A DNA stretch of 64,000 nucleotides from Massilia atriviolacea (GTDB lineage Bacteria; Pseudomonadota; Gammaproteobacteria; Burkholderiales; Burkholderiaceae_D): NCBI RefSeq assembly GCF_003953935.1, contig NZ_RXLQ01000003.1, positions 186,001 to 250,000 of the forward strand. Reading direction: 5' to 3'. The translations under genes and the position numbers were made by a program. Positions 9,098 to 47,568 of the stretch are shown here, piece by piece; position 1 is the stretch's first letter; every line of letters starts with the position of its first letter. Under the pieces are notes generated by a model, which worked only from the letters and a program-made list of their open reading frames with translations, was not told the DNA's origin and did not search any database.

Positions 9098-9181
9098 CCT
9101 CATCGCGCCCACCTCGTCGCAGCCGCCTCATCGCGCCCACCTCGTCGCAGCCGCCTCATCGCGCCCACCTCGTCGCAGCCG
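9098..9181. repeat. Three tandem copies of a 28-bp unit
   Basis: Units beginning CCTCATCGCGCCCACCTCGT start at 9098, 9126 and 9154, an exact 28-bp period. They run on (9182-9300) into degenerate CCTCGTCGCAC-type copies. The region lies between the stop codons of two convergent genes. Confidence 0.85.
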
Positions 9182-9310
9182 CCTCTTCGCACCCGCCTCG
9201 TCGTACCCGCCTCGTCGCACCCCCTCGTCGCACCTGCCGCCTCGTAGCACGCCCTCGTCGCACCTGCCGCCTTGTAGCAACCCCCTCGTCGCCCCCCCCT
9301 CATCGCACCC

Positions 9311-9464
9311 CCTCGTCGCAACCCCTCGTCGCAACCCCTCGTCGCAACCCCTCGTCGCAACCCCTCGTCGCAACCCCTCGTCGCAACCCCTCGTCGCAAC
9401 CCCTCGTCGCAACCCCTCGTCGCAACCCCTCGTCGCACCCCCTCGTCGCACCCCCTCGTCGCAC
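9311..9464. repeat. Tandem 13-bp array, about twelve copies
   Basis: The unit AACCCCTCGTCGC repeats with a 13-bp period and almost no divergence, the last two copies having CC in place of AA. The same CCCCTCGTCGCA sequence is the outer edge of the adjoining inverted-repeat element at 9452-9550, so the array looks like an amplification of that element's end. Confidence 0.85.
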
Positions 9465-9550
9465 CCGCGAAGGCGGGTGCCCAAGTTCGTGGCGCAGCCA
9501 GCGACTGGGCCTCACACTTGGGCACCCGCCTGCGCGGGTGCGACGAGGGG
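9452..9550. repeat. REPIN-like pair of inverted hairpin repeats
   Basis: Left arm 9452-9485 contains CCCCTCGTCGCACCCGCG, then AAGGCGGGTGCCCAAG. Right arm 9517-9550 is its near-exact inverse, with a 31-bp middle. Each arm can fold on its own (GCACCCGC/GCGGGTGC) and the two arms can pair with each other. Located between convergent stop codons, it may also end transcription from both sides. Confidence 0.8.
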
Positions 9551-35157: not shown

Positions 35158-36218
35158 TGCAGGGACCGTTCTCCACGCGGCGCGGCGCGGGCCTGTACCT
35201 GCTCGCGTGGCTGCTGCTGGCGATCGTGTTCGCGGGCCTGATCGTGGCCGCCAGCGGCGCCGCGTGGACCGGCGGCTTGCTGTTTACCGTTCCGGTGACC
35301 TTGCTGTACGGCTGCGCCGCCGGCTTCTCGGCTTATTACCTGTGCCGCGCCTATCCGCTGGGCGAGCGCAGCGCGGTCTCGGTGCTGGCCGTGTTCGCGG
35401 CCGCGTCCACACTCGCCAGCCTGTTGTGGACCGCGCTGTGCAGCGCCTGGAACGCCGTCTGCGAGGCCATTACCATGAGCGCGCCCCTGCACGCGGCGAT
35501 CTTCGGCCTGGGCGTGATGCTGTACGCCTTGAGCGCCGTGGCCCACTACCTGGCGCTGGAATTCCAGCGCGCGCGCGCCGCCGAACGGCGCGAACTCGAA
35601 GTGGCCCTGATGGCGCAGGATGCCGAGCTGCGCATGCTGCGCACCCAGATCGATCCGCATTTTCTGTTCAACAGCCTCAATTCGATCAGCGCGCTGACCT
35701 CCATCGACCCGGCCCGCGCGCGCGACATGACCGTGCGCCTCGCCGATTTTTTTCGTCACAGCCTGGGACTGGAAGCGGGCCGCAAGGTCACGCTGGAGGC
35801 GGAAGCGACGCTGGCGCTGCATTTCGTCGCCATCGAAAAAGTACGCTTCGGCGCGCGCCTGAACATCGAGCAGGACATCGACCCCGCCGCGCTGGCCTGC
35901 CTGCTGCCGCCGATGATCCTGCAGCCCCTGGTCGAAAACGCCGTCAAGCACGGCATCGCCCAGCTGACCGGCGGCGGCACCATCCGCATCGCGGCGCAGC
36001 GGGCCGGTTCGATCCTGAAAATCGTCGTCGAGAACGATATCGACGCCGATCCGCCGGCCGCCGGCGGCAACGGCATCGGCCTGGCCAATGTGCGCCAGCG
36101 CCTGGCGGCCACCTACGGCCACGAGGCGAGCATCCACTGGGCGCGGGAGGCGCAGCAATTCCGGGTGGCGCTGTCGCTGCCCGCCCACACTACGGAGAAT
36201 GAAGCATGCGCGTCATAA
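35157..36218 (+). CDS. LytS/AlgZ-type sensor histidine kinase
   Basis: 353 residues, four membrane segments in the first 140. His_kinase domain (PF06580-like) has LRTQIDPHFLFNSLNSISAL with the phosphorylated His. HATPase features are LQPLVENAVKHGIAQ and GGNGIGLANVRQRL. It overlaps its LytTR response regulator by 13 bp. The preceding LiaF-like genes suggest that it senses envelope stress; this is inference from operon order. Confidence 0.93.
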   Translation: MQGPFSTRRGAGLYLLAWLLLAIVFAGLIVAASGAAWTGGLLFTVPVTLLYGCAAGFSAYYLCRAYPLGERSAVSVLAVFAAASTLASLLWTALCSAWNAVCEAITMSAPLHAAIFGLGVMLYALSAVAHYLALEFQRARAAERRELEVALMAQDAELRMLRTQIDPHFLFNSLNSISALTSIDPARARDMTVRLADFFRHSLGLEAGRKVTLEAEATLALHFVAIEKVRFGARLNIEQDIDPAALACLLPPMILQPLVENAVKHGIAQLTGGGTIRIAAQRAGSILKIVVENDIDADPPAAGGNGIGLANVRQRLAATYGHEASIHWAREAQQFRVALSLPAHTTENEACAS

Positions 36219-36928
36219 TCGTCGACGATGAAGACCTGGCCCGCGCCCTGGTGCGCGAGTTCCTGGCCCGGCATGCCGACATCGAGATCGTGGCCGAATG
36301 CGCCAACGGCTTCGACGCCGTCAAGGCCATCACCGAGCTGGAACCGGACCTGGTCTTCCTCGATATCCAGATGCCCAAGCTGAGCGGCTTCGACGTGGTG
36401 GAACTGGCCGGCAGCAAGGCGCGCTACATCTTCGTGACCGCCTTCGACCAGTACGCGCTCAAGGCCTTCGAGATCCATGCCGTCGATTACCTGCTCAAGC
36501 CATTCAGCCAGCAGCGCTTCGATCGCGCGCTGGCGCATGCGCGCACCGGTATCGGCAAGGGCGCGGTGGACGCCGTGGTCCAGGAAGCGGCGCTGCGCAA
36601 CAAGCCGCTGGAGCGGGTACTGATCCGCGATGGCGCGCGCGTGCACATCATCGTCTCGGCGCAGATCGACTACGTCGAGGCGCAGGACGATTACGTGCGC
36701 ATCAGCGCTTGCGGCAAGCACTACCTGAAGAACCAGCGCCTGTCGGAGCTCGAAAGCCAGCTCGATGCGGCGACCTTTGTGCGGGTGCACCGTTCGTGGA
36801 TGCTCAACCTGGGCGCGATCGATCGCATCGAGCAGGGGCGCGACAGCCATACCGCGATTCTCAAGGACGCGACCCGGATTCCCGTCAGCCGCAGCGGCTA
36901 CCAGAAGGTCAGGGCGCTGCTGGGCTGA
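36206..36928 (+). CDS. LytTR-family response regulator (AlgR/LytR type)
   Basis: 240 residues, ribosome site TACGGAGAA. Receiver domain: MRVIIVDDEDLAR, phosphoacceptor Asp in LVFLDIQMPKLSGFD, VTAFDQYALKAFE and Lys in DYLLKPFS. C-terminal LytTR DNA-binding domain: IDYVEAQDDYVRISA, FVRVHRSWMLNLGAI. Last gene of the four-gene operon starting at 34044. Its stop is 36 bp before the 165-bp repeat array. Confidence 0.95.
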   Translation: MRVIIVDDEDLARALVREFLARHADIEIVAECANGFDAVKAITELEPDLVFLDIQMPKLSGFDVVELAGSKARYIFVTAFDQYALKAFEIHAVDYLLKPFSQQRFDRALAHARTGIGKGAVDAVVQEAALRNKPLERVLIRDGARVHIIVSAQIDYVEAQDDYVRISACGKHYLKNQRLSELESQLDAATFVRVHRSWMLNLGAIDRIEQGRDSHTAILKDATRIPVSRSGYQKVRALLG

Positions 36929-36963
36929 TGCCCGTGGTTCCCAGCACCGTTGGGCCCTGCCAC

Positions 36964-38395
36964 CGTCGTTCCCGCGCAGTCGGGAACCCAATTTGTCACC
37001 GCACCGGCGGATCCTGGAACTTGGGTTCCCGCCTGCGCGGGAACGACGGGTTTGGAGGAAACGCTTACGACAGGGCTTGGGTGAATGCGACACGCGCCTG
37101 GTCCAAATGCTACCAGCGGCCCTATCACCGTCGTTCCCGCGCAGGCGGGAACCCAATTTGTCACCGCACCGGCGGATACTGGAACTTGGGTTCCCGCCTG
37201 CGCGGGAACGACGGGTTTGGAGGAATCGCTCACGGCAGGGCTTGGGTGAACGCGACACGCGCCTGGTCCAAATGTCACCAGCGGCCCTACCACCGTCGTT
37301 CCCGCGCAGGCGGGAACCCAATTTGTCACCGCACCGGCGGATCCTGGAACTTGGGTTCCCGCCTGCGCGGGAACGACGGGTTTGGAGGAAACGCTCACGG
37401 CAGGGCTTAGGTGAATGCGACACGCGCCTGGTCCAAATGCTACCAGCGGACCTATCACGGTCGTTCCCGCGCAGGCGGGAACCCAATTTGTCACCGCACC
37501 GGCGGATCCTGGAACTTGGGTTCCCGCCTGCGCGGGAACGACGGGTTTGGAGGAAACGCTCACGGCAGGGCTTAGGTGAATGCGACACGCGCCTGGTCCA
37601 AATGCGACCAGCGGCCCTATCACCGTCGTTCCCGCGCAGGCGGGAACCCAATTTGTCACCGCACCGGCGGATCCTGGAACTTGGGTTCCCGCCTGCGCGG
37701 GAACGACGGGTTTGGAGGAATCGCTCACGGCAGTGCATGGGTGAACGCGACACGCGCCTGGTCCAAATGCTACCAGCGGCCCTATCACCGTCGTTCCCGC
37801 GCAGGCGGGAACCCAATTTGTCACCGCACCGGCGGATCCTGGAACTTGGGTTCCCGCCTGCGCGGGAACGACGGGTTTGGAGGAATCGCTCACGACAGGG
37901 CTTGGGTGAACGCGACACGCGTCTGGTCCAAATGTCACCAGCGGCCCTACCGCCGTCGTTCCCGCGCAGGCGGGAACCCAATTTGTCACCGCACCGGCGG
38001 ATCCTGGAACTTGGGTTCCCGCCTGCGCGGGAACGACGGGTTTGGAGGAAACGCTCACGGCAGGGCTTAGGTGAATGCGACACGTGCCTGGTCCAAATGC
38101 TACCAGCGGCCCTGCCACCGTCGTTCCCGCGCAGGCGGGAACCCAATTTGGTACAGTACCGGCGGACCCTGGAACTTGGGTTCCCGCCCGCGCGGGAACG
38201 ACGGGTTTGGAGGAAACGCTCACGGCATGGCTTGGGTGAATGCGAGACGCGCCTGGTCCAAATGCTACCAGCGGCCCTGCCACCGTCGTTCCCGCGCAGG
38301 CGGGAACCCAATTTGTAACCGCACCGGCGGACCCTGGAACTTGGGTTCCCGCCTGCGCGGGTACGACGGGTTTGGAAGAAGCGCCGACGACAGGG
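36964..38395. repeat. Nine-copy 165-bp tandem array of REPIN-type hairpin pairs
   Basis: Units start (CGTCGTTCCCG) at 36964, 37129, 37294, 37459, 37624, 37789, 37954, 38119 and 38284: an exact 165-bp step. Each has an about 85-bp palindromic pair, CGTCGTTCCCGCGCAGGCGG ... inverse ... GGGAACGACG, around a middle beginning TTTGTCACCGCACCGG. An about 80-bp spacer follows. Each arm contains TTCCC-N8-GGGAA, the pattern of Neisseria dRS3 repeats. The spacers end with a sequence homologous to the 3' end of the helicase gene at 38397; the ninth spacer is that gene's own end. The 165-bp unit is divisible by three, so long meaningless reading frames run through. It lies between convergent genes. Confidence 0.95.
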
Positions 38396-38396
38396 C

Positions 38397-40652
38397 TTAG
38401 GTGAGCGCGACACGCGTTTGCTCCACATGCCACCAGCGCGGCAGCAGTTCGCGCACCTCCGGCTGGGCGAAGCGGTCGTCGATCAGGTACACCACGCCAC
38501 GGTCGCCTTCCGTGCGGATCACGCGGCCGGCCGCCTGCACCACCTTCTGCATGCCCGGATACAGGTAGGTGTAGTCGTAACCGGCGCCGAAGGTGGCCTG
38601 CATGCGCTGGCGGATCTGCTCGTTGACCGGATTCATTTGCGGCAGCCCGAGCGTGGCGATGAAGGCACCGATCAGGCGCGCGCCCGGCAGGTCGATTCCT
38701 TCGCCGAAGGAGCCGCCCAGCACCGCAAAACCGACCCCGCGGCTCTCCAGCGTGAAGCGGCCGAGGAAAACATCGCGCTCGCTCTCCTGCATGCGGCGCG
38801 GCTGGCGGAACACGGGAACCCCGGGGTGATCGCGTTCGACCCGCTCGGCCACCTGCTCCAGGTAATCGAAGCTGCTGAAAAACGCCAGGTAATTGCCTGG
38901 CGCCTCGGCGTACTGGCGCGCGATCAGGGCCGCGATCGGCGCCACCGAGCGGGCCCGGTGCGTGAAGCGTGTCGAGATATCGCGCACCACATGCACGCTT
39001 AACTGGTCGGCGACGAACGGCGAGTCGATGTCGACCCAGGCCGTGTCCGGCGGCAGTCCAAGGGCGTCGCTGTAGTAGTTCCGGGGACTGAGGGTGGCCG
39101 AAAACAGCGCCGTCGCATGGGCCAGCGCAAAGCGCGGCTTGAGGAAGGGCGCCGGCACGATATTGCGGATCGCCAGCGTGGAGGCATGCGCGCCCTCGCG
39201 CGTGCAGTCGATCATGGAATGCTCGGCGAAGGTGTCGGCCAGCCGGGCGAAGTGCAGGGCGTTGAAGTAGAAGCGCTGCAGGTCCGGCTCCATCGGCCCC
39301 GGATTCTCGGCCAAATGGTCGGTGATCGCGCTCGACGCCCCTTGCAGCGCATCGAGCAGTTTCTCGGGCGGCGCGTCCAGCACTTCGTAATCGGCGCCAT
39401 CCTTCGCCGGCCAGTTGCGGCCCACCTTGTCGAGCGCCTTTTTCAGGTGCGCCGGCGCCACCGCGCGCGCCGCCCGCAGCGCGCCGCGTTCCAGGTCGGC
39501 CGAATACATCTTGCGTGCGCGCGACACCATGTTGTGCGCCTCGTCCACCAGCACGCTCACGCGCCACTGGTTGGCCAGGGCCAGCCCGTACAGCATGGCG
39601 CCCATGTCGAAGTAGTAGTTGTAGTCGCCCACCACCACGTCGCTCCAGCGCGCCATTTCGCTGCCCAGGTAATACGGGCACACGTCGTGCGCCAGCGCGA
39701 CCTCGCGCACGCTTTCGCGGTCGAGCAGCGGCACGTCGCGCGCCGCGCTGCGCGCCGCCGGCAGGCGGTCGTAGAAGCCCTTCGCCAGCGGACAGGAGTC
39801 GCCGTGGCAGGCCTTGTCGGGATGCTCGCAGGCCTTGTCGCGCGCGACCAGTTCCAGCACGCGCAGCGGCATGCCGGGGGCGCTGCGCTTGATCGCTTCG
39901 GCCGCGTCCAGCGCCAGCTTGCGGCCGGGGGTCTTGGCGGCCAGGTAGAACACCTTGTCCAGCCGGTGCAGCGGCGCCGCCTTGAGGACCGGGAACAGGG
40001 TGCCGACGGTCTTGCCGATGCCGGTCGGCGCCTGCGCCAGCACGCAGCGCGCGCCGCTGTTGGCGCGAAAGATGGTTTCGGCCAGGTCGCGCTGGCCCGG
40101 ACGGAAGGCCGCATGCGGAAAGCGAAGCGCGCCCAGCGCCGCGTCGCGCGCGTCGCGGTGACTGAGCTCCTGCGCGGCCCAGGCCACGAAGCGCTCGCAC
40201 AGCTCGGCGAACACGACGCGCAGCTCGGCCGCGCCGCGGGTTTCGCGCAGCACGGTTTCGGTCTGCTTGCCGATGTCGAAGTAGACCAGCGCCAGCGACA
40301 CCTGCTCCAGCCCGAGCTGCGCGCACAGCAGGTGTCCGTAGACGCGCACCTGGGCCCAGTGCAGGTGGCGGTGATTGGCCGGCATGCGATCGAGGTCGCC
40401 GCGAAAGGTCTTGATTTCCTCGATCAGCTGCTGGTCCGGGTCGTAGCCGTCGGCGCGGCCGCGCACCAGCAGCGGGCCGTACTCGCCGGACAGACTGACT
40501 TCTTTCTGGTAGCCGGGGCCGCGCCGCTCGGCCACCACGGCGTGGCCGGCGATGCCTTCCTGCGCGCTGGGCGAGGGCGTGAAGCGCAGGTCGAGGTCGC
40601 CCTGCTTGGCCGCGAATTCGCACAGCGCGCGCACGGCGACGACGTAGCTCAC
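38397..40652 (-). CDS. Fe-S DinG/XPD-type DNA helicase with N-terminal RecB/Cas4-like nuclease domain
   Basis: 751 residues from GTG 40652, which overlaps the upstream TGA. N-terminal PD-(D/E)XK-like domain: LLVRGRADGYD (Asp near 67) and LIEEIKTFRG (E-x-K near 79-81). Helicase core: Walker A APTGIGKT (208-215) and Walker B/DEAH VLVDEAHN (368-375). Four cysteines lie at about 275, 282, 287 and 325 (ACEHPDKACHGDSC; HDVCPYY), matching the 4Fe-4S domain of XPD/DinG. C-terminal motifs are LGGSFGEGIDLPG and QAAGRVIRTEGDRG. Expected to unwind damaged DNA 5'-3' with the coupled FAN1-like nuclease. Its 3' end is copied in the downstream repeat array. Confidence 0.92.
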   Translation of the reverse strand: MSYVVAVRALCEFAAKQGDLDLRFTPSPSAQEGIAGHAVVAERRGPGYQKEVSLSGEYGPLLVRGRADGYDPDQQLIEEIKTFRGDLDRMPANHRHLHWAQVRVYGHLLCAQLGLEQVSLALVYFDIGKQTETVLRETRGAAELRVVFAELCERFVAWAAQELSHRDARDAALGALRFPHAAFRPGQRDLAETIFRANSGARCVLAQAPTGIGKTVGTLFPVLKAAPLHRLDKVFYLAAKTPGRKLALDAAEAIKRSAPGMPLRVLELVARDKACEHPDKACHGDSCPLAKGFYDRLPAARSAARDVPLLDRESVREVALAHDVCPYYLGSEMARWSDVVVGDYNYYFDMGAMLYGLALANQWRVSVLVDEAHNMVSRARKMYSADLERGALRAARAVAPAHLKKALDKVGRNWPAKDGADYEVLDAPPEKLLDALQGASSAITDHLAENPGPMEPDLQRFYFNALHFARLADTFAEHSMIDCTREGAHASTLAIRNIVPAPFLKPRFALAHATALFSATLSPRNYYSDALGLPPDTAWVDIDSPFVADQLSVHVVRDISTRFTHRARSVAPIAALIARQYAEAPGNYLAFFSSFDYLEQVAERVERDHPGVPVFRQPRRMQESERDVFLGRFTLESRGVGFAVLGGSFGEGIDLPGARLIGAFIATLGLPQMNPVNEQIRQRMQATFGAGYDYTYLYPGMQKVVQAAGRVIRTEGDRGVVYLIDDRFAQPEVRELLPRWWHVEQTRVALT

Positions 40653-42307
40653 TGCGCCCACTGCAGGTAGCACACCGAAATCGGCATCTCGTGCGCGGCG
40701 CAGTACTCGATCCAGCGCAGCTGGTTGTCCTGCAGGCGGTCGCCCGGGCCTTTGACTTCGATCATGTTGTAGCGCCGCTCGCCGGGCCAGAACTGGATCA
40801 GGTCGGGAAAGCCGTTGCGGTTGGCCTTGATGTCGAGCAGGATGCGCTCGCACCATTTTTTGAGGTGCGGCGCGGGGATGCAGGCCAGCGCCATGTCGAG
40901 CAGCTCGGGAGCGAGCGCTTCCCAGGCCACGAAGGGCGACTGCAGTCCGCGCTTGGCGGCGTAGTTGGCGCGGATGGTGTCCAGGTAGCGGCCGTCGTCG
41001 AGCTGGTCGAGGCAGGCGCGGAATTCGCGCTCGCGGCGGCGGTAAAAGTCGGCGCTGTGCAGGTCGGCCGGACCGCGGTGGAAGGGGTGGAAGAAGGCGC
41101 CGGGAATGGCGCTGAACACCGGGCCCCAGCACAGCAGCCCGAACAGCGAGTTGATCAGCGCGTTCTCGACGTAGAACACGGGCGCGTCGGCGCGCGCCAG
41201 GTGGTCGCGCACGATGCCTTCGACCCACCAGTTCGCTTCGAGCGGCATCGGCAGGCTCAGGTCGAGCCGCTGCACCGCCGGATTGCGCCGCGACGGCAGC
41301 GGCTGGTGCCCGAGCTTGCGGCGCAGGCGCGGCGCGATGCGCAGCAGTTGCTGGCGCTCGGCGTCGCTCTCGGGCGCGGCCTGGGCCCGCTCCAGCAGCG
41401 CGTACGCTTCGGCGTAGCGCTCGTGCTTTTCCAGCACGCGGATGGCGCGCGCCCGCGCACCCGGATAATTGCAGCAGGCGTACAGTTGGAAAGCCTGGCC
41501 CCAGTCCTGTTGCTTTTCCACGTGCTGGGCGATCTGGAACATCAGCCGTTCGCGCCGGCTGTCGATCCATTCGTTATCGAAAGCATCGCGCGGCAGGGCG
41601 GCCAGCACCTCGTCCAGTGCGTCGCCGGCCCGGAAGCGCTCCTTGCACTGGTGCAGGGCCAGGTAATCGTCGACATCGCGGCGCGTGCGGAAGCCGCGCG
41701 AGGACGCCGAAAACTCCACCTTTTCATACTGGAACAGGCCGAGGTCGGACAGCACGAATTCGGTCCAGTCCTGGCGCAGGTTGCCGAAGAAGATCAGGCG
41801 CAGGCGCTCGCACAGGTCCTTGACGGCGATGCTGTAGACGGTGTCCGGCGAATCGCGGTACCAGGCCGAAAACGCGCGCGCGGCGCCGAAGCCCTCGCGC
41901 AGGGCGGCCAGCTGCTCGCCCTTGCGCGCGCTCTTTTCGTGCAGCGACAGGCTGAAGATGGCGCCGATCTCGGCCTTGAGCAGCAGGTCGAACAGCTCGT
42001 CGAGCGAGAGCACCGGGTCGGCCCGGACCCAGCCGGTCGGAAGCAGGTGGCGCGCGGCGTCGACTGCGCAGCCGATTTCGGCGTAGTTGAGTTTGCTGGC
42101 GCGAAAGACCGTGCCCTTGCGCATGACCATGCGCACCAGCAGCGCGCGCGAGGCTTGCGGCAGCGACGGGAAGGCGGCAATGAACGCCCGCTCCTCGTCG
42201 GTGAGCAGGTCGTCATAACGCCCGGCAATCCATTCCAGTACCCGGTGGAAGTTATCCAGGTAGTAGAACTCATTCTCAAGAACTTTGCGCATCGTACTGC
42301 GGACCAT
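40649..42307 (-). CDS. FAN1-type structure-specific nuclease (VRR-NUC domain)
   Basis: 552 residues from ATG 42307; ATG 42292 is an alternative. N-terminal region NEFYYLDNFHRVLEWI, then SAP-like/helical segments and TPR-like repeats in the middle. The C-terminal VRR-NUC has ILLDIKANRNGFPDLI, then YNMIEVKGPGDRLQDNQLRW, giving the PD...ExK active site and QxxW. The length fits bacterial FAN1 (Pseudomonas FAN1 about 560). Family role: incises flaps and interstrand-crosslink intermediates. A LexA-type operator lies 11 bp upstream, and the helicase is coupled by GTGA overlap. Confidence 0.92.
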   Translation of the reverse strand: MVRSTMRKVLENEFYYLDNFHRVLEWIAGRYDDLLTDEERAFIAAFPSLPQASRALLVRMVMRKGTVFRASKLNYAEIGCAVDAARHLLPTGWVRADPVLSLDELFDLLLKAEIGAIFSLSLHEKSARKGEQLAALREGFGAARAFSAWYRDSPDTVYSIAVKDLCERLRLIFFGNLRQDWTEFVLSDLGLFQYEKVEFSASSRGFRTRRDVDDYLALHQCKERFRAGDALDEVLAALPRDAFDNEWIDSRRERLMFQIAQHVEKQQDWGQAFQLYACCNYPGARARAIRVLEKHERYAEAYALLERAQAAPESDAERQQLLRIAPRLRRKLGHQPLPSRRNPAVQRLDLSLPMPLEANWWVEGIVRDHLARADAPVFYVENALINSLFGLLCWGPVFSAIPGAFFHPFHRGPADLHSADFYRRREREFRACLDQLDDGRYLDTIRANYAAKRGLQSPFVAWEALAPELLDMALACIPAPHLKKWCERILLDIKANRNGFPDLIQFWPGERRYNMIEVKGPGDRLQDNQLRWIEYCAAHEMPISVCYLQWAQ

Positions 42308-47034: not shown

Positions 47035-47119
47035 TGGTGCCCACGGAGGGACTCGAACCCCCACACCTCGCGGCACATGGACCTGAACCATGCGCGTCTA
47101 CCAATTCCGCCACGTGGGC
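47035..47119 (-). tRNA. tRNA-Leu (CAG), copy 4 in transcription order
   Basis: 85 nt including encoded CCA. Acceptor GCCCACG pairs with CGTGGGC. D-arm GGCGGAATTGGTAGACGCG, anticodon loop TTCAGGT between CATGG and CCATG, long class II variable arm, T-arm GTTCGAGTC. Reads CUG codons, the dominant Leu codon in this GC-rich DNA. Confidence 0.97.
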
Positions 47120-47184
47120 ACTGATACAGCTACTACAACATACTACGGACTACTTGGTACTCGCTGAAAAACATCTCCAGAGAG

Positions 47185-47269
47185 TGGTGCCCACGGAGGG
47201 ACTCGAACCCCCACACCTCGCGGCACATGGACCTGAACCATGCGCGTCTACCAATTCCGCCACGTGGGC
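47185..47269 (-). tRNA. tRNA-Leu (CAG), copy 3
   Basis: Identical in sequence to the neighbouring copies, 150 bp from the previous one. The following spacer (47270-47333) is the divergent one: it shares only its ends and a CTGAAAAAC element with the others. Confidence 0.97.
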
Positions 47270-47333
47270 ATCGATACTGCAACAATCTACTGCTTTACTA
47301 CCTGGTACCCACTGAAAAACCTCTTTCAGGGAG

Positions 47334-47418
47334 TGGTGCCCACGGAGGGACTCGAACCCCCACACCTCGCGGCACATGGACCTGAACCATGCGCGTCTAC
47401 CAATTCCGCCACGTGGGC
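47334..47418 (-). tRNA. tRNA-Leu (CAG), copy 2
   Basis: Identical tRNA sequence with anticodon CAG and encoded CCA. The spacer between this copy and the first (47419-47483) is nearly the same as the spacer at 47120-47184, differing at one base. Confidence 0.97.
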
Positions 47419-47483
47419 ATTGATACAGCTACTACAACATACTACGGACTACTTGGTACTCGCTGAAAAACATCTCCAGAGAG

Positions 47484-47568
47484 TGGTGCCCACGGAGGGA
47501 CTCGAACCCCCACACCTCGCGGCACATGGACCTGAACCATGCGCGTCTACCAATTCCGCCACGTGGGC
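47484..47568 (-). tRNA. tRNA-Leu (CAG), copy 1 (promoter-proximal)
   Basis: Identical tRNA sequence. First in transcription order. A TATGAT sequence lies 56-61 bp upstream of its 5' end. Confidence 0.97.

Follow-up and report, generated by a model that had tools for sequence, protein, structure and literature searches.

The 64,000-nt stretch of Massilia atriviolacea DNA studied here (the window, to whose full length all coordinates refer) carries a gene for a DinG/Rad3-type helicase (hereafter the gene), a convergent gene for a LytTR response regulator (lytR) and, in the gap between them, a tandem array of nine units, each made of a head-to-head pair of repetitive extragenic palindromes (REPs) and a spacer (Table 1). 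The nine hairpin pairs at a period of exactly 165 bp that had been seen in a preliminary description were borne out both by Tandem Repeats Finder (TRF), which placed 9.0 copies of period 165 with 0% indels at 36953-38438, and by an ungapped repeat search, in which the nine copies were separated by eight spacings, all of 165. The arms of each pair are 32 nt long, 97% complementary and separated by a 23-nt loop (repeat search), and for the four stretches that were folded the predicted hairpin energies were −65 to −74 kcal/mol (z −9 to −13).

The spacers revealed the origin of the repeated unit. The final codons of the helicase were copied along with the palindrome pair, and unit 9 has the genuine gene end as its spacer, an arrangement already proposed from the letters and now seen in the repeat search, the TRF output and a codon alignment covering the last 42 bases of the gene. 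The spacer of units 1–8 comprises approximately the last 13 helicase codons, the stop codon and 27 bases beyond. Counted from the unit farthest from the gene, the copies match the 42 bases at 34, 35, 35, 35, 34, 36, 34 and 33 positions, so that the earlier figure of 35 is exact for three copies and close for the others (33, 34 or 36). The peptide first given for the spacers, RW*HLDQARVAFT*, is found unchanged in two of the eight copies (third and seventh) and varies elsewhere, and the accompanying Trp-to-stop change is present in seven (TAG in five, TGA in two), the remaining copy having Ser at this codon. The final stop codon is kept in three copies and replaced by Gln in four and by His in one. 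The likeness extends past the stop codon as far as the hairpin, with 4–6 differences per 27 nt. A similarity no better than chance had been named beforehand as fatal to this assignment; the 42-mer of the gene scores 36 within the array, whereas 1000 random 42-mers drawn from other parts of the window scored no higher than 29 and 1000 shuffled versions of the gene end no higher than 26. The other danger named was a spacer that occurs in relatives away from any helicase. A 72-base spacer query gave nine matches in this genome, all inside the array, and none in 16 other genomes of the genus; the spacer is thus present in one of 17 genomes, and there in the array only.

The locus was then compared with that of relatives, as had been suggested, using 12 of 80 listed loci; the polarity of the helicase changes was read from the six closest of 29 relatives, whose helicase C-termini are 93–94% identical. 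The lytR gene is convergent with the helicase in all six, with gene ends 1–569 bases apart versus approximately 1470 here, and the convergent pair was seen at the loci of 19 of the 29. The array is absent from the six closest relatives, which retain the gene pair, and no long palindrome array was found at the helicase loci fetched from the 29. The palindrome core lies downstream of the helicase at four of these 29 loci, all four belonging to the closest six; in G008 the gap holds two cores with 32 bases between them. In a more distant relative (L121) palindromes of another core directly follow the helicase stop codon (by eye).

Four positions, in codons 5, 6, 7 and 12, separate the gene from all eight copies. 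At codon 6 the copies and the six relatives have GAC and the gene GAG; at codon 7 they have CAG and the gene CAA; the first base of codon 12 is T in the copies and in three of five relatives, and C in the gene and in one of five (G002). Since the copies have the base of all or most of the compared relatives at these three codons, it is mostly the gene that changed after the duplication. Of the two explanations offered previously for the mismatches, an older or foreign allele or a later change of the gene end, the latter is therefore favoured and a foreign allele is unsupported. At positions 27, 28, 36 and 39 the gene and the copies (seven of eight at position 28) share a base absent from all comparable relatives, which places the duplication within the lineage of the window; at position 30 the shared base also occurs in G002. 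With copies free of coding constraint and a gene end that has since changed, the array preserves in part how the helicase gene once ended.

Table 1. Coordinates of the helicase-end array, its units and neighbours, and of the two further arrays of gene ends in the same genome.
Feature	Coordinates	Strand	Evidence or remark
Tandem array, nine 165-bp units (palindrome pair + spacer)	36953-38437	no strand	TRF and ungapped repeat search
Unit 1, farthest from the gene	36953-37117	-	Decayed helicase-end copy; base change in one arm
Unit 2	37118-37282	-	Decayed helicase-end copy
Unit 3	37283-37447	-	Decayed helicase-end copy; exact peptide RW*HLDQARVAFT*
Unit 4	37448-37612	-	Decayed helicase-end copy; Ser at the Trp/stop codon
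Unit 5	37613-37777	-	Decayed helicase-end copy
Unit 6	37778-37942	-	Decayed copy closest to the gene over 42 bases (36/42)
Unit 7	37943-38107	-	Decayed helicase-end copy; exact peptide RW*HLDQARVAFT*
Unit 8	38108-38272	-	Decayed helicase-end copy; hairpin loop most divergent of the units
Unit 9	38273-38437	-	Palindrome pair and real helicase 3' end; stop codon 38397-38399
DinG/Rad3-type helicase open reading frame (ORF), ORF extent	38397-41570	-	Pfam Helicase_C_2 1.1e-40, DEAD_2 7.3e-11 over 38400-40628
LytTR response regulator (lytR), convergent neighbour	36206-36928	+	Pfam Response_reg 3.7e-22, LytTR 3.3e-21
Example head-to-head CGTC-REP pair, 32-nt arms, 23-nt loop	37128-37214	no strand	RNA hairpin predicted, -72.9 kcal/mol, z -13.3
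hemL array	L135:2398-3395 (G000:C7)		Three extra hemL ends with palindrome pairs
AcrB-type resistance-nodulation-division (RND) transporter array	L140 (G000:C1:563500-566500)		Gene end three times with single palindromes

The palindrome of the units reads CGTC-GTTCCCGC-GCAG-GCGGGAAC-CCA. It has the CGTC tag, an 8-bp stem, a 4-nt loop and the CCA tail, within the range (stem of 8–9 bp, loop of 4–5 nt) by which CGTC-REPs are defined in the accessible text of PMC3733652, and it occurs in head-to-head pairs with the CGTC ends outside and no transposase partner. The first stem pair is G-C and the second T-A, whereas A-T is described as almost invariable at the first and second stem positions of CGTC-REPs (PMC3733652, same text); the loci of relatives show both ATTCCC and GTTCCC forms. 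Two inverted REPs within one hairpin also agree with the definition of REPINs (REP doublets forming hairpins) in the accessible part of PMC3116915, the name first applied to this array. In its strict sense that name has to be withdrawn, as no link to a REP-associated tyrosine transposase (RAYT) was seen: the core is absent from all four Y1_Tnp loci of the genome with their 1.5-kb flanks, a search that decayed forms could escape. On account of these CGTC-REP features and of the lack of Y1_Tnp loci with the core, the array is filed as a CGTC-REP cluster, not a REPIN. It is a tandem REP cluster with flanking DNA, the 165-bp unit holding the palindromes and a spacer unique to the locus. No Rfam family matched at its gathering score within 36000-39500. 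The dRS3 pattern ATTCCC(N8)GGGAAT does not occur in the units, whose core is GTTCCC(N8)GGGAAC; the window has 15 matches to the 20-base phage-target dRS3 pattern, each with two mismatches and each inside the array.

The same arrangement recurs at two further genes of this genome. Ten regions were chosen by eye from a repeat list (40 of 133 candidates scored); four (L141-L144) hold no tandem palindrome array, and coding ends were found in three of the seven clusters examined, namely those of the window, of hemL and of an AcrB-type RND transporter. The hemL gene (NCBIfam TIGR00713, 613.9 bits, cut-off 527.3) is followed by a unit of 245–254 bp present four times: the true last 45 codons, the stop codon and a palindrome pair come first, and then three copies of 42–45 codons. 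The two last copies carry a nine-base in-frame deletion and end ...RRVLA* in frame, the gene ending ...RRVFAKLA*. Polarity was assessed in 15 of 16 relatives, G006 being excluded because its gene is interrupted. At the four substituted sites the two last copies have the base commonest in relatives (9, 7, 12 and 11 of 15; 6, 4, 5 and 5 of the closest six), and the first copy shares the base of the gene at three of the four. A palindrome core lies within 100 bases after hemL in one of the 16 relatives (G002), and a different core is found 930 bases on in G013. Outside this genome an extra hemL end was seen in G011 alone, and not beside this palindrome: in this other species a copy of the hemL end (85%; L182:2074-2207) lies 1093 bp downstream of hemL, next to an unrelated palindromic repeat.

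At the RND transporter two extra copies of the last 35 codons are identical over 108 nt; the units begin at two different points in the gene, and one copy is longer. This array contains one N, and an array of 35 half-palindrome-like units of 22 bp adjoins it. The three arrays are apparently of different age, the RND ends being identical over 108 nt, the hemL ends nearly so and the helicase ends decayed. The remaining clusters are of other kinds. A 55-bp array (L139) repeats the stretch just after the stop codon of an ORF with no Pfam match, its junction lying within a stretch that shares nine of ten bases (by eye); the spacer of L136 resembles the 3' flank of its gene (by eye); L138 consists of bare half-palindromes; and in L137:1606-1848 (G000:C2) a 48-bp palindrome repeat is present five times in frame within a DUF2334 gene (PPSFPRRREPKLPA-like repeats).

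Within the helicase array, units 1, 8 and 9 carry both distal-edge bases GC, and no inner unit carries both. Units 2 and 6 are alike at 162 of the 165 positions and units 3 and 7 at 163. A higher-order duplication of four units was considered and set aside as weak, the identity among the eight copies being 0.958 at a lag of four and 0.947–0.951 at lags of one to three.

A palindrome pair near a stop codon is a site where the polymerase may slip back or switch template. We consider it very probable that the gene end and its palindrome were duplicated within this lineage, that unequal exchange expanded the array and that the gene end changed later. An ancestral CGTC-type REP pair would have lain just downstream of the helicase stop codon, as the palindromes in the gap of close relatives suggest, and a single duplication with its breakpoint approximately 13 codons inside the gene would have copied the gene end and the palindrome pair downstream. 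This step would most likely have occurred by slippage of the polymerase, or by a switch of template, at the hairpin; a polymerase that restarted inside the gene would yield the gene and a palindrome, followed by a gene end and a second palindrome. A duplication of this kind does not break the gene, to which one copy remains joined, and strong selection against the duplication is therefore not expected. Unequal homologous exchange, which requires only repeats, would then have raised the number of units to nine and made the inner ones partly uniform. Stop codons would have accumulated in the freed copies; over the same time two or three sites of the gene end changed. A selected function would be unnecessary to explain the array.

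Several observations weigh against this account. No fork of the unit tree is strongly supported, and the sequence shared at the helicase breakpoint, where slippage is proposed, is approximately one base (by eye). The gene ends of the relatives diverge past codon 8, and polarity thus rests on few sites. At codon 5 the gene matches all six relatives, so the copies are derived there; taken together, the four codons indicate two or three changes in the gene and one in the founder copy. At the four hemL sites the base of the gene is also present in 6, 2, 0 and 3 of the 15 relatives. Finally, in the near-closed genomes G013 and G010 (one and two contigs; 40 of 206 and 40 of 196 candidates scored) no gene end was found in the four tandem-looking places inspected (L158-L161), which hold a different composite element or single palindrome pairs. 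As the tandem palindromes of these places carried no gene end, the habit may be peculiar to the present genome. The composite element of G013 (L158:1443-1914) is 235 bp long, surrounds a palindrome pair and is present twice in tandem with a 100% match; pieces resembling it lie in palindromes of other loci of G013 and G010 (by eye).

Other origins account less well for the array. Spacers derived from a foreign helicase allele, transferred and recombined beside the gene, would agree with the distance of the copies from the gene (6–9 of 42 bases), which exceeds the mean difference between copies; this origin was rejected as highly improbable on the strength of the four bases common to gene and copies and absent from comparable relatives, and of the genus search, in which none of the 16 other genomes contained the spacer. 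An artefact of assembly, in the array itself or in its copy number, merits as little credence: the source is a single draft genome (7.36 Mb, 80 contigs) and the RND array has an N, but no two of the nine helicase units are identical and exact direct repeats in the array reach 146 bp at most, so that ordinary reads could have resolved the array.

Maintenance by selection, for instance as a two-way block of mRNA 3' ends for the helicase and lytR or as a gyrase site, seems unlikely, although the four folded pairs are very stable and REPs are typically found, like this array, between convergent genes (PMC3733652, accessible text). Across the eight copies, 3 of 64 arm sites are variable, as against 23 of 101 in the remainder of the unit (Fisher p 0.0018). 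Selection on the palindromes would account for this, and so would exchange among the many arms of the genome, which would likewise conserve the arms. The six closest relatives have no array, and the terminator reading was rejected because a consensus scan gave no intrinsic terminator-like site (1.8 expected in shuffles). It is distinctly unlikely that a transposase cut the palindromes and that single-strand transposition left the tandem units behind as by-products. Four Y1_Tnp genes are present in the genome, but the core was not found in their loci (1.5-kb flanks; decayed forms could have escaped), the unit breakpoints fall at unrelated positions inside genes, and CGTC-REPs are reported to have no dedicated transposase (PMC3733652, accessible text).

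With the duplication of a gene end within the lineage as the preferred reading, unconstrained copies beside a living gene serve as an internal outgroup and, together with relatives, tell base by base which side has changed. Three arrays that seem to differ in age within a single genome allow the rise and decay of REP clusters to be read, and they show that a duplication can have its breakpoint within a gene and leave that gene whole. By analogy with the silent cassettes of Neisseria, but at housekeeping genes, REP arrays here might time and again take up copies of ordinary gene 3' ends and retain them as a small archive of alternative C-termini, a speculation to which we give a very small chance; exchange between archive and gene may run both ways, because one hemL copy shares three of the four changed bases of its gene. 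Elsewhere in the window, two tandem arrays of another repeat (units of 74 and 62 bp, opposite orientations) occupy 192-615, and this repeat also flanks the Y1_Tnp gene at G000:C64:118969 (L154; by eye). A 13-bp unit is repeated 27 times at 9098-9466, and four tRNA-Leu(CAG) genes stand in tandem, approximately 150 bp apart, at 47035-47568.

No published report of coding ends inside REP arrays was found in a search of mainly open literature, supplements not covered. As far as these searches show, a flank made of coding sequence that preserves an earlier gene end is new, whereas tandem REPIN clusters with flank are already known. In P. fluorescens SBW25, 16 clusters of tandem REPINs with flanking sequence are described, and these ordered clusters share with the present array the tandem inverted REP pairs and the repeated flank. 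They belong to RAYT-linked families and reach four REPINs at most, against nine units and no transposase partner found here, and the accessible part of that account does not mention coding ends as flank (PMC3116915). Large GTAG-REP clusters are also described as including segments of flanking DNA. The CGTC-REP superfamily shares with the array the outside CGTC tag, the stem of 8 bp, the loop of 4 nt, the CCA tail and the placing of head-to-head pairs near the 3' ends of genes, and differs in the first stem pair; its clusters are called rare, Neisseriae and Wolbachia excepted, in contrast to the nine-unit cluster found here (PMC3733652, accessible text for both families). The dRS3 and NIME (neisserial intergenic mosaic element) arrays of Neisseria are likewise mosaics of palindromes and longer spacers, and the core found here is close to that of the phage-target dRS3; NIME spacers are described as families of RS repeats, whereas the spacer of the present array is the gene end of a single neighbour (PMC3898611, accessible text).

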